Source of the DNA: Arabidopsis thaliana
Taxonomy: Eukaryota; Streptophyta; Magnoliopsida; Brassicales; Brassicaceae
NCBI RefSeq assembly: GCF_000001735.4
Contig: NC_003071.7
Location: 11,091,151-11,155,150, forward strand
Length of the DNA: 64,000 bases
Reading direction: 5' to 3'
Part shown: piece after piece, positions 44,706-52,120 of the stretch
How positions within the stretch are numbered: the first letter of the stretch is position 1
How the letters are laid out: each line of letters starts with the position of its first letter
Notes under the pieces: model-generated
Databases searched by the model: none
What the model was told of the DNA's origin: nothing
The model's input: only the letters and a program-made list of their open reading frames with translations
Program-made: the position numbers and the translations under genes

Positions 44706-46067
44706 ATGGAAGAACTGAAAGTGGAAATGGAGGAAGAAACGGTGACGTTTACTGGTTCTGTAGCGGCTTCTTCATCTGTAGGATCCTCTTCCTCTCCTAG
44801 ACCAATGGAAGGGCTTAACGAAACAGGGCCACCACCGTTTCTGACTAAGACTTACGAAATGGTGGAAGATCCGGCGACGGACACGGTGGTTTCTTGGAGT
44901 AATGGTCGTAACAGCTTTGTGGTGTGGGATTCTCATAAGTTCTCAACAACTCTCCTTCCACGTTACTTCAAGCATAGCAATTTCTCAAGTTTTATTCGTC
45001 AGCTCAATACTTATGTAAGTACCTCTTTGCTTCCTTATATCTACTTAGTCTTGTTTCTGTTTTTGTTTCTAATTTTTAATTTTGGATTTCTTTAGATGGG
45101 TTTCCTATGAGTCTTCAGCTATAAAGGTTAGTTCTTTAAGCTTTTAAGTGGCTAAATTGAAATTAGATGCATTGAGATTTTGGTCATATGTTAAGAGAAT
45201 CATTTAACATAAACTCTGTTCAATCCTCTGTTTCTGAAGTTCAAAATGTGTTTGGTAGTAAAAACAGAATCTTGGAATGATAAGTAAGGACTCTGCCTCA
45301 AGTTCAGTAGCTGATGAAACTTGTTTTGGTGATTGCAGGGATTCAGAAAGATTGATCCAGATAGATGGGAATTTGCAAATGAAGGGTTTTTAGCAGGACA
45401 AAAGCATCTCTTGAAGAACATCAAAAGAAGGAGGAACATGGGTTTGCAGAATGTGAATCAGCAAGGATCTGGGATGTCATGTGTTGAGGTTGGGCAATAC
45501 GGTTTCGACGGGGAGGTTGAGAGGTTGAAGAGGGATCATGGTGTGCTTGTAGCTGAGGTAGTTAGGTTGAGGCAACAGCAACACAGCTCCAAGAGTCAAG
45601 TTGCAGCTATGGAGCAACGGTTGCTTGTTACTGAGAAGAGACAGCAGCAGATGATGACGTTCCTTGCCAAGGCGTTGAACAATCCGAACTTTGTTCAGCA
45701 GTTTGCGGTTATGAGTAAAGAGAAGAAGAGTTTGTTTGGTTTGGATGTGGGGAGGAAACGGAGGCTTACTTCTACTCCAAGCTTGGGGACTATGGAGGAG
45801 AATTTGTTACATGATCAAGAGTTTGATAGAATGAAGGATGATATGGAAATGTTGTTCGCTGCAGCAATCGATGATGAGGCGAATAATTCGATGCCTACTA
45901 AGGAGGAACAATGTTTGGAGGCTATGAATGTGATGATGAGAGATGGTAATTTGGAAGCAGCGTTGGATGTGAAAGTGGAAGATTTGGTTGGTTCGCCTTT
46001 GGATTGGGACAGCCAAGATCTACATGACATGGTTGATCAAATGGGTTTTCTTGGTTCGGAACCTTAA
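44706..46067 (+). CDS. HSFA2: HSFA2, heat stress transcription factor A2
   Basis: 345-aa class A2 heat shock factor that amplifies and maintains the heat response. Two exons, 44706-45014 and 45339-46067; the intron interrupts the DNA-binding domain after RQLNTY (residue 103), the conserved HSF position. The DBD covers about 42-135 ([12 protein letters not shown] to LLKNIKRRR, which also supplies the nuclear signal). The oligomerisation region with heptad hydrophobics ([19 protein letters not shown]) follows, then AHA-type activation motifs ([26 protein letters not shown]) and a leucine-rich export signal at the C-terminus. Lys315 in VKVE is a SUMO consensus site. The 324-nt intron is the source of known heat-dependent splice variants. 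Recalled as At2g26150. Confidence 0.97.
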
Positions 46068-46827: not shown

Positions 46828-47056
46828 TTAGAGGAACGGAGGAAAGAACATGTGAAAACAACTATGAGAAGAAAACTCAGTACTATCGATGATACTACCA
46901 TCACCAAGCTTGAACATCTTAACAGCTTCATCATTCATTCCATCATTACAATATTCTCCATCATTATCATCGAAGTAGATATAATTCTTCAAAAGTCCAT
47001 GGTACTCGGAACTCTCATCATCATGCTTGATAAATTGATCAGCTTCTGCGCCACTC
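46828..47056 (-). pseudogene. Severed C-terminal segment of the F-box/DUF295 gene
   Basis: Minus-strand open frame of 75 codons ending at TAA 46828-46830. It contains SSEYHGLLKNYIYFDDND and MFKLGDGSIIDSTEF, matching the C-terminal part of DUF295 proteins. It is in the same frame as the gene at 47306-48301 once the solo LTR and one copy of the 5-bp target duplication are ignored: AGT of the target site joins GGC, GCA and so on. Without the insertion the protein would be about 399 aa, a usual size for the family. It has no start codon of its own in a useful place, so it is probably untranslated. Confidence 0.85.
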
Positions 47057-47325
47057 TGATACGTTCATGAGAAGTTGGCACGTGTGAGAACTGAAGTGAG
47101 AGATTGGAGTCACGTGTGAAGAAGATTATAAATAGTAAGAGAGAGTAGAGAGAAAAGCATCCTGCGTGATCATTGATGTGTAAAGAGGATTAGAGCTTTA
47201 TGTGCTCTGTTCTTGGGAGATAAGATTGGAGAACTGTAACTCCAAGCTTATCGATTTAGGGTTTGTTTCATTGTAATTGGGATTTTAAGGATAAGAAAGA
47301 GAAATTCATAGTTTCATTCTTATCA
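47057..47325 (+). mobile_element. Solo LTR, 269 bp, inserted in an F-box gene
   Basis: Begins TGATACGTTCATGAG and ends CATTCTTATCA, with 5-bp inverted tips TGATA/TATCA and the TG...CA rule. It is flanked by a perfect 5-bp duplication CACTC (47052-47056 and 47326-47330). A TATA box TATAAATA lies at 47127-47134 and two CACGTG motifs lie upstream in the U3 part, giving plus-strand orientation, antisense to the F-box gene. The size suits a Copia-type LTR. No internal retrotransposon sequence remains, so recombination between two LTRs is inferred. Confidence 0.88.
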
Positions 47326-48301
47326 CACTCTTTCGCACATTATCAACGAAGTAGATAGAATTGTTCAAACATCCATGGTACTCGGAGGCTACAACAGTAA
47401 AACAACTGTCCCTAGCCACAATGAGTGCCTTGTCTCCCAAGGACCTAACCTCAACCCATTTTGCCACATACTCGTCCATCTTATAAACCTTAAAACCAAC
47501 TGTCCTTTGACTCCTTCGGATATAAGCTTTCTTTAAGCGAAGTTGATGAATAATGCATAGATCTCCACAATACTCAACGAGTCTCTTGTTGCAACTATCA
47601 TATCCGTCGTAGTCCATTGGAATTGAAGGTGTGAATTGAAGGAGGCTGAGCGGTGATAAACTAATCCACCAAATTGCGCCGGTTAGGTCTAAGGCATAGA
47701 CTTGTCCTTTATGAAGTATAATGTCCAAGAAATCTTCAACTTGGTTTTTGATTTTTGTCCATATTCTACTACTCTCTTCTCCACTCTTGCAGCACCAGAT
47801 TTTGTCATCCTGTCCGACTGCGAAAATCAGATTGTCTAGGAAAACAACTCTAGACAATATATGTGATGGTCCTTCTTTACCTATCACGCCTTGTATTAAA
47901 TACTTATCAAATATATGAATCTCGTAAGATTGGCGAATCTCTGAAACCTCAAATTTCAAAAGGTCTAGGGTTTGTTGTGAAGGGGTTAGGAGCTGGCGAA
48001 AGAAAGGAGACAAGAGATTAATCTTACTGGATTCAGAGACTTGTTTGGTTCTGATCAGCCATCCTTTGTAAGAACATGAAGAAGGGCCAGTTACACGGAA
48101 GAAAGTGGTGGGAGAGAGAACAGTCTCTATCATCTTGTTGGAGGAAGGAAGGTTGCATTGAAAGCTCTTCGGTGTCGCAGCCGCCGAACGCCAGGGTTTA
48201 CAGATGCTACGTACACGGAGGACGTCACTAATGGAGGAGAAACGGTTTGCGGTTAAATTGATGAGGTCTCCAGGTAATTCAGACCACTCAGGTTTTTCCA
48301 T
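47306..48301 (-). CDS. F-box / DUF295 protein, C-terminally truncated by an LTR
   Basis: 331 aa, one exon, predicted SCF adaptor. The F-box is at residues 4-45 ([20 protein letters not shown], then [13 protein letters not shown]). The DUF295 domain covers most of the rest ([57 protein letters not shown]). It normally ends with an NSIYF-type segment and a D-x-G-x-F-x-L-x-DGS motif. Here the frame runs from [12 protein letters not shown] straight into the solo LTR, which supplies the last six residues and the stop. The missing 75-codon end survives at 46828-47056. LTR sequence should also provide the mRNA 3' end. Recalled as At2g26160. The domain core is retained, so some function is possible. 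Confidence 0.88.
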
Positions 48302-49700
48302 CTTTGAATCAATCGACGATGTGAGAGCGTGATCAACATCGGCTCGCCCTCTCTGTTATAACTCCATATATATACACAACAAAACTTAAACCCTAGATAC
48401 TTGAGGACTTACGTGGGCTGGACTAGAATCCATCCAATTCCTAGTTGGATTTTCGATTAGCTATTATCACGTGAGTAATATCTGCATTACATGTATTGAC
48501 TTAGTATTATTGTTGGAGCAATGTTTTTTTTTTGTTAAAAATTATTATTGGAGCAATGTTTTGTTTTTGTTAAAAATTATTTGAGCAAACCAAAAAATCG
48601 CAGAATGAATTATAAAACAGTTCGTATTTCGATGAAATTTCGTCTCTCCCTCTCAATAGCTTTGGTGCAAATTAATACCCTTACTACATACATGTCAACT
48701 TAACTCTAATTCTAACAAATAGAACAGAAAATCTGGAGAGAGAAAAAAAACGTAACTAGATGAAAGAAAAGAAAAAAAAAAAGACTTCAAAATTTGTATA
48801 AAAATATAGAAATGTTGAACAAAAATTATTAACTCTAAACCAAAAATTAAGACAATGATCTAATATTCTAATATCATGAATCATGATAGAAAAGGAACAC
48901 CTAACTCCATAAATGATGGTCATGCAATGATCAAATTTCTCCTTTATCAATTATTGGTTTATATTCCAATGTCCAAACTCGAAAGTCGAAACAATCTCCT
49001 CCATATATAGCCATTTCTTTCCCTAACCCATTAAAATACAAAACTAAAGAACCATCAATAATTTTTTCAACTGAAAAAGGAAGAACAATTTGTGATCCAA
49101 AATAAAAGAGAGAAAAAAAAAAGTGGAGAAAGGAGACCAAAAGTAGAAGCGTGGTTTACTCCAATTGACGGTAAACCCCTTTGACAAGTAGAGGCACTTG
49201 ATAGTAGTGTAACAAAAGTACAACGATGGGTGAAGATTGGTCAAACATCAAAAGGACCCCATACTCAAAAGATAGTATTCTGTTTATTTATAATCATATA
49301 TTTACAAAAAACTAACATTCAGAATATAAAAATATTAGAATATGTAAATTTTGCAAACATAGAGGAGTATTAAATATAGTTAAATAGTTTCGAATTAAAC
49401 ACTAAATAATTAAATGTTGACAAGAAAAAAAAACATAAAAATTAATACGGATTCCGTGCGTTACAATAACTTAGCAATATTACTCTCTAGTAGAGATGAG
49501 AACTTGAGTACTTGACTAATAATTTCAACGCATGTTGTCTTCTTGCGAAATAGTCCCACGCTATTCTAAAGGTGGGCTAGTGGAAAGAGTGTAGAACCCA
49601 CTTTTCAAAAGCACATCAACTACTATATAAATTAATGAACCACCTAACAAACAAACCCACACATTAAACTAAAGAAGAGAGAACTTTAGAGGTTAGAGAG
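48302..49700. other. Divergent spacer between the F-box/DUF295 gene and MAX1
   Basis: Contains the F-box promoter (left), an imperfect two-copy repeat of about 37 bp around TTGGAGCAATGTTTT at 48514-48580, AT-rich DNA, and the MAX1 promoter with TATATAA at 49624-49630 and a leader of perhaps 45-50 nt. No other gene. Confidence 0.5.
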
Positions 49701-52120
49701 ATGAAGACGCAACATCAATGGTGGGAAGTTCTTGATCCATTCTTGACACAACACGAAGCTCTTATTGCATTCTTGACTTTTGCAGCGGTTGTAATTGTGA
49801 TTTACTTGTACCGACCCTCCTGGTCCGTATGCAATGTTCCCGGTCCAACCGCTATGCCTCTAGTTGGTCACTTGCCCTTGATGGCTAAGTATGGTCCTGA
49901 TGTCTTCTCCGTTCTTGCTAAGCAATATGGCCCTATTTTCAGGTACCTCTCCTCTCTCTCTCTCTTTATTCTGTTTTCGGTGGCTAGAGACCTAGAGTTT
50001 AGTTTTTAAGTTTTCGTGTCGACAAAAAAAAACAGTTTTAGTTAATTTGTTCGGTTTAATGTAATTTTTGGTTTATTTGATTTGATTTTCTGTTTAGACT
50101 TTAGAGTCAGTTTGATTTTTAAAATAAGGAAAACAACTTCATGTAAATAGTGCTTTAATTAATATACAAGTACTTTTTAACATATATAATTAAAAAATAT
50201 AACTTTTTAATGAATTTCTGTTTATTTATAACTTCAGTTTCATTTTTAGTCATTTGATAATAATGAAACCAATTTAACCAAAAGAGATAAATAATTAAGA
50301 AAACCTAATGGAAAAAAACATTTATAATTTAATGTAGTTTTTGTATTATTTCATTTGATTTTCAGTTTATTTTAATTTAAATGATTTATAAACACATTAT
50401 GTTTAATTTTGTTTAATCATTTTGGTTTAGTTTGGTATATATGGCCATCTCTTATGGTTGTTATGACTGAGTGATGAACACAACAAGTGTCTAAAAAACA
50501 AAATGAAGACAAGTGATCATGTCCATTTAAATTAACAACAAACAGATTTCAGATGGGGAGGCAACCACTGATAATAATAGCAGAAGCAGAGCTTTGCAGA
50601 GAAGTTGGGATAAAGAAGTTCAAAGATCTTCCAAACAGAAGCATTCCTTCCCCAATCTCAGCTTCTCCTCTTCACAAGAAAGGCCTCTTCTTCACCAGGT
50701 ACAATGGTACATACATGCTCTATAAAACTATGTATGTTTTTGTTTCTATAACCATTTATGATTCTTTGACAGGGACAAGAGATGGTCTAAAATGAGAAAC
50801 ACCATCCTATCTCTCTATCAGCCTTCACATTTAACAAGTCTTATCCCTACAATGCATAGTTTCATCACTTCTGCTACTCATAATCTTGATTCTAAACCGC
50901 GAGATATCGTTTTCTCCAACCTCTTCCTCAAACTTACCACTGATATCATCGGACAAGCGGCTTTTGGAGTCGACTTCGGTCTTTCCGGGAAGAAACCAAT
51001 CAAAGATGTGGAGGTGACTGATTTCATAAACCAGCATGTCTACTCTACAACACAACTCAAGATGGATTTATCAGGATCACTCTCTATCATCTTAGGCTTA
51101 CTGATTCCGATTCTTCAAGAGCCGTTTAGGCAGGTGTTGAAGAGGATACCGGGAACAATGGACTGGAGAGTCGAGAAGACTAATGCAAGACTGAGTGGAC
51201 AACTTAATGAGATTGTGTCAAAGCGAGCCAAGGAGGCTGAGACTGACTCAAAAGACTTCTTGTCATTGATTTTGAAAGCTCGAGAGTCCGATCCTTTCGC
51301 CAAAAACATCTTCACATCGGATTATATTAGTGCTGTGACTTATGAGCATCTTCTTGCTGGCTCTGCAACCACTGCTTTCACACTATCCTCTGTTCTTTAC
51401 TTAGTCTCTGGTCATCTTGATGTTGAGAAACGTCTGCTTCAAGAAATTGACGGGTTTGGGAACCGTGATCTGATCCCGACTGCTCATGACTTACAACACA
51501 AGTTTCCATACCTCGATCAGGTGCTTCATTAGTAACAAACAAAAACCGAGAAGTTGAGTTTCTGTGAGAGATTAGAATCTTTATGAATGTTTTTTATTTG
51601 CCTCCTTTGTAGGTCATTAAAGAGGCTATGAGATTCTACATGGTTTCTCCTTTGGTTGCAAGGGAAACTGCTAAAGAAGTGGAGATAGGAGGTTATTTAC
51701 TCCCAAAGGTATATTCAAACCCATCAAGCGGATTAGTCCATTTACAGTCAGCACTTGTAATCTATTACTTACCTTGTGGTTGTTGCTTAGGGGACATGGG
51801 TTTGGTTAGCACTAGGAGTTCTAGCAAAGGACCCTAAAAACTTTCCAGAACCGGAGAAGTTCAAGCCGGAAAGATTTGATCCGAACGGAGAAGAGGAGAA
51901 ACATAGACATCCATACGCTTTCATCCCATTCGGTATCGGTCCACGAGCCTGTGTTGGACAGAGATTTGCCCTGCAAGAGATCAAACTCACATTACTGCAT
52001 CTCTACCGTAATTACATTTTCAGACATTCCCTAGAAATGGAGATACCACTGCAGCTTGATTATGGTATAATTCTCAGCTTCAAGAACGGGGTTAAGCTCA
52101 GAACCATCAAAAGATTCTGA
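49701..52120 (+). CDS. MAX1: MAX1 (CYP711A1), strigolactone biosynthesis P450
   Basis: 522-aa ER-bound cytochrome P450 that oxidises carlactone to carlactonoic acid, an intermediate of the shoot-branching hormone strigolactone. Five exons: 49701-49942, 50546-50698, 50773-51520, 51613-51708, 51791-52120, all in frame. An N-terminal anchor lies at about residues 20-42 ([16 protein letters not shown]). The I-helix motif is [10 protein letters not shown], the K-helix ExxR is Glu385-Arg388 (EAMR), PERF is in the meander, and the haem loop is [11 protein letters not shown] with ligand Cys467. It converges on IQD6, stop codons 162 bp apart. Recalled as At2g26170. Confidence 0.97.

Follow-up and report, generated by a model that had tools for sequence, protein, structure and literature searches.

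A solo LTR within a tandemly duplicated C-terminal module of an Arabidopsis thaliana F-box/DUF295 gene and the probable stepwise decay of the gene

A survey of 80 accessions gives 62 DUF295 pseudogene loci for 77 Col genes (PMC3521719). Many F-box genes have altered C-terminal ends, and the study concerned argues that many of these evolve neutrally and are pseudogenes (PMC3030570). Presence-absence variants are in excess among F-box genes, according to a further report (PMC8042739). The locus described here shares with the pseudogenes of PMC3030570 a damaged C-terminal part, but the cause is the scar of a mobile element, whereas that report discusses frameshifts. F-box genes with a DUF295 domain (KIB1-4 beta-propeller, PF03478) resemble the locus in domain order, in their C-terminal ending, which here lies beyond an LTR, and in the identity to one paralog, L015. 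In contrast to them, a C-terminal module of 34 codons is duplicated here, an LTR sits within the duplication, and the F-box score stays below the cut-off. With solo LTRs of LTR retrotransposons the locus has in common the one LTR, the 5-bp duplication, the TG...CA ends and a two-LTR relative elsewhere in the genome; no difference from known solo LTRs was found, and the LTR here happens to sit in a coding region. No report of the LTR insertion or of the duplication was found in the literature searched, as judged by titles and the beginnings of abstracts, and such a report may still have been published.

The window is the whole stretch of 64,000 bp that was analysed (contig C2:11091151-11155150), and the genome searches covered the 119.66-Mb genome. 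In its current form the gene reads as follows.

48301 to 47306, minus strand: F-box/DUF295 (KIB1-4 beta-propeller) gene, 331 amino acids plus stop, assigned by Pfam PF03478

Its neighbours are, on the left, an exon for a heat-shock factor DNA-binding domain (44706-45092) and, on the right, a cytochrome P450 exon (50792-51529). We take these to be HSFA2 (AT2G26150) and MAX1 (AT2G26170), from which it would follow that the F-box/DUF295 gene is AT2G26160. The name AT2G26160 turns up in three papers, which to judge by their titles deal with jujube, lemon and date palm. The body of the gene is free of stops and frameshifts. In the 331-residue protein PF03478 scores 135.1 bits (E 3.8e-39), above the gathering cut-off of 27.4. 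The N-terminal F-box stays below the cut-offs, with 15.6 bits against 20.5 for PF00646 and 12.7 against 24.3 for the F-box-like model. Nevertheless, this region still aligns with paralogs whose F-box passes; L015 passes both models and L016 one. With E up to 1 allowed, a sequence search of solved structures returned 18 distinct sequences, the best at 0.23, that is, no relative by sequence.

The last six residues of the protein and the stop codon lie within an LTR.

47057-47325, plus strand (sense most likely opposite to that of the gene): solo LTR of 269 bp with TG...CA ends, recognised by its copies in the genome search and by a two-LTR relative
47052-47056, no strand: left copy of the target-site duplication CACTC, from the sequence
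47326-47330, no strand: right copy of the target-site duplication CACTC, from the sequence

Two marks of a solo LTR, the target-site duplication and the TG...CA ends, are present here. Codon 325 is the last one before the frame of the gene passes into the LTR; VIRMKL and a stop follow. A preliminary description had proposed that a solo LTR disrupts the gene at an exact 5-bp duplication and supplies the last six residues and the stop. This is borne out in all parts by the ends, the duplication, the other copies and the two-LTR relative, with the single refinement that the V codon of VIRMKL takes its first base from the target copy. On the plus strand the LTR contains TATAAATA at 47127 and CACGTG at 47079 and 47111. 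As for polyadenylation of the gene by the LTR, which most likely lies antisense to it, a scan of the LTR on the strand of the gene for eight signal words gave AATGAA only, at 47318 and 47272, the other seven being absent.

The genome search with the LTR gave at least 13 matched stretches, including the LTR itself; two of these, L012 and L013, are adjacent pieces of one place. The closest other copies, L003 and L002, lie 2751 bp apart on contig C3 in the same orientation. Each differs from the solo LTR at 5 of 269 bases, and they differ from each other at 4 of 269. By its layout this pair is a two-LTR element related to the solo LTR. The three longest frames in the region between the two LTRs all lie on the plus strand of the element, and a purine-rich run is found just before the second LTR. 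Such a run ahead of an LTR is a mark of retrotransposons. The orientation of the internal frames, the purine-rich run and TATAAATA together argue that the plus strand is the sense strand of the LTR, which was therefore most likely inserted antisense to the F-box gene. A leftover LTR promoter, if there is any, would point into the gene and drive antisense RNA.

More remote matches are L006 with 84% identity over the whole LTR and L008 with 81% over query positions 67-269, and the family seems to be low in copy number. Two further copies, L005 (C1:17429398-17429648; 93%) and L007 (C4:4463541-4463747; 88%), have altered or missing left ends. The closest two-LTR copy (L042, C3:16258900-16263900) is flanked on its outer sides by GATTG and AATGG, which is no matching target duplication. 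Of the six frames listed for L042 three were scanned with Pfam, and of the four for L043 two. At E up to 0.1 none of them matched a retrotransposon protein, and hence there was no pointer to copia or gypsy; these frames gave only weak, unrelated matches with E between 0.017 and 0.048. The L042 element may be recombinant or non-autonomous.

On the far side of the LTR the reading frame continues.

46828-47051, minus strand: C-terminal coding part orphaned by the insertion, still in frame and terminated by the stop at 46828-46830, recognised by paralog homology

If the flanks are joined without the LTR and one target copy, a frame of 1200 bp results, that is, 399 codons and a stop at 46828-46830, without an internal stop or frameshift. 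The lost C-terminus can indeed be read in frame, as had been claimed. The same claim had put the far side at 75 codons ending in DGS. Its continuity in frame holds, with 74 codons plus stop, but DGS is not the end: 21 residues (IIDSTEFSSHSCFHMFFPPFL) come after it. Both remaining frames of the far side are interrupted by stops. An open frame of 219 bp was reached by 86 of 20000 mononucleotide shuffles and 71 of 20000 Markov sequences, and by 877 of 20000 segments drawn at random from the window, its coding stretches among them. Openness by itself is therefore only moderate evidence, and the last figure speaks for an accidental frame that was never part of the gene. This explanation, to which we give practically no weight, is refuted by homology to paralogs in the right frame and order and by the ending shared with them. 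Searched as DNA against the genome, the far side had four matches: itself, the first module copy in its own gene, L015 (C3:9401918-9402079; 73%, E 3.2e-25) and L016 (C4:16935406-16935495; 79%, E 9.5e-14). This homology is stronger evidence than openness, and judged by it the far side is the former C-terminus of the gene.

The C-terminus could still be made if the LTR were removed as an intron. Across the LTR, 130 GT-AG combinations keep the frame open to the old stop, and one of them, 47338 to 47056 (283 bp), takes out little besides the LTR. However, GT and AG are common dinucleotides and the 130 is a raw count; in addition, the best donor agrees with the consensus at 6 of 9 letters, and the donor of the 283-bp combination at 4 of 9. 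Splicing of this kind is therefore considered highly improbable.

Among the paralogs of the 331-residue protein, L015 (66% identical in the genome search, 63% in a separate alignment) and L016 (50%) are the best. The joined frame was aligned with five full-length paralogs chosen by hand (L015, L016, L018, L019 and L023). In all five the protein goes on beyond the site of the LTR and closes with an ending, KVFKLxDGS...SCFxMFxPxFL, that they share with variations. The 331-residue frame is devoid of this ending, which is present beyond the LTR only. L025 and L026, two full-length relatives at a greater distance that were left out of the alignment, end differently, and the ending thus marks the close subfamily and not DUF295 as a whole.

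Inspection of the two sides of the LTR revealed a 49-bp direct repeat, 90% identical, that straddles the insertion and had gone unnoticed in the preliminary description.

47338-47386, minus strand: conserved block of the first module copy, from the 49-bp direct repeat
46962-47010, minus strand: conserved block of the second module copy (SEYHGLLKNYIYFDDN), 90% identical in DNA to the first
47011-47046, minus strand: what is left of the first copy on the far side of the LTR, EADQFIKHDDES, degenerate and probably the counterpart of EAVKMFKLGDGS (tail comparison)
46894-46929, minus strand: corresponding part of the second copy, EAVKMFKLGDGS (tail comparison)

Without the LTR the distance between the two module copies is 102 bp, which is divisible by three, so that 34 codons are repeated in frame; within the first copy, 61 bp precede the LTR site. 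In the 49-bp block five differences affect four codons, all of them amino-acid changing (by eye; too few to test). The likeness of the tails is modest: out of 2000 trials each, the score of EADQFIKHDDES against EAVKMFKLGDGS was reached by 24 codon shuffles, 1 mononucleotide shuffle and 3 random window segments, and the best score of the segments, 94, points to overlap with the copy itself. The alignment of the first copy with L015 also takes in its tail, with 17 of 20 bases at the DGS end. All 24 loci of the genome search with the protein (L014 to L037) were scanned for the module with a fixed protein pattern, which degenerate copies would escape. The pattern occurs twice in the gene itself (L014), once in ten other loci and not in the remaining 13. 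Three of the ten repeat the copy of another locus (L020 that of L018, L021 of L017, L024 of L023), which leaves seven distinct places. All seven have a single copy, and among these loci the double module is found in this gene only. The SCFxMFxPxFL ending, with variations, follows in six of the seven distinct close paralogous loci carrying the module. Of the seven, L017, with four stops in its match, and L028, without the ending in that frame, look broken themselves. The L028 fragment (C1:24446734-24446862) has no subfamily ending soon after the module and is perhaps a case of independent C-terminal decay.

Because the LTR splits the first module copy, the duplication appears to be older than the insertion. 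This bears on the proposal that the locus is a natural before/after pair for the C-terminus of DUF295, which is weakened: the joined gene carries an extra copy of 34 codons where seven paralogous loci have one, so that the end had already been duplicated in the pre-insertion allele, which is no clean control. Growth of beta-propellers by blade amplification, as described in PMC9218822, offers a parallel in the tandem copy of a unit within a propeller domain. Compared with what is seen there, the unit here has just 34 codons, a degenerate tail and is now cut, and its folding as a blade would be hypothetical. It is tempting, if rather far-fetched, to speculate that before the insertion the gene was enlarging its propeller by a closing blade-like module and that LTR-free accessions may still express the 399-residue form. 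In that case, a single substrate receptor would be segregating in the species with different end structures.

Rough ages can be attached to these events. Two bases, read by eye from the LTR alignment, are peculiar to the solo LTR. At a substitution rate of 7e-9 per site per year these two changes would date the insertion to about 1.1 My (interval 0.13 to 3.84), and the age may be lower if the source copy already had both bases. The insertion had been called young, and both this estimate of about 1 My, wide as its interval is, and the 5 of 269 differences to the closest copies agree. The 49-bp block would place the duplication at about 7 My (2.4 to 17), and a dS of 0.318 the split from L015 at about 23 My. 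Each figure is rough, and their order agrees with the anatomy.

The locus is most likely explained by stepwise decay under weak constraint, in a family rich in pseudogenes. In detail, we propose a two-step decay of a DUF295 F-box gene, by module duplication and then by LTR insertion with LTR-LTR recombination, that left a product probably non-functional or weakly constrained; the probability of this reading is roughly 0.85. In the first step, the last module of the beta-propeller region would have been duplicated in tandem and in frame, bringing the gene to 399 codons. An LTR retrotransposon of the apparently low-copy family would later have entered the first module copy, most likely in antisense orientation, and recombination between its two LTRs presumably left the solo LTR. 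As a consequence the frame now ends six codons into the insertion, and the product would be without the second module copy and the ending of the close paralogs. The substrate-receptor end of one F-box gene would thus have been lost in two steps, each roughly dated, and its pieces can still be read. The locus would be a tidy but ordinary case of gene decay in a large, fast-changing plant family and a neat worked example of birth-and-death evolution among plant ubiquitin-ligase receptors. It opens no long-standing question, since disrupted alleles are common in the family and the pre-insertion allele is no clean control.

The gene appears weakly constrained. Over 315 codons, the comparison with L015 gave a dN/dS of 0.68 (Fisher p 0.024, from rounded counts); the other two pairs gave 0.53 and 0.56. 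A value below 1 together with the open body argues for some constraint, past or present, and both would fit a truncated protein of 331 residues that still functions, with a nearly complete propeller to which the LTR just provides a new end. The truncated protein also covers the DUF295 profile up to position 234 of 242, against 241 for L015 and L016. However, such a protein would be without KVFKLxDGS...SCFxMFxPxFL, common, with variations, to the five aligned paralogs, its F-box match is below the cut-off, and a young insertion leaves little time for decay, so that the open frame says little. We therefore regard a functional product as unlikely. Since the conserved end is lost and the gene appears weakly constrained, decay is the simplest account. 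The far side has a dN/dS of 0.54 over 40 codons (Fisher p 0.25), from too few sites, and as the youth of the insertion alone predicts an intact far side, its intactness is no sign of selection.

Relative-rate counts over the whole body gave no overall acceleration of the truncated gene against L015: unique changes were 22 versus 24 at 302 sites with L016 as outgroup, 14 versus 19 at 295 sites with L018, and 16 versus 17 at 301 sites with L019. Nor was faster evolution of the truncated gene seen in the propeller part, which has fewer unique changes than that of L015 (15 versus 22, outgroup L016). For the F-box region only, the counts were 7 versus 2 (L016; chi-square 2.78), 6 versus 3 (L018) and 6 versus 1 (L019); the extra changes there are suggestive only. 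Upstream of the start of the gene, at 48506-48575, a unit of 35 bp is present as a tandem pair whose members are 94% identical.
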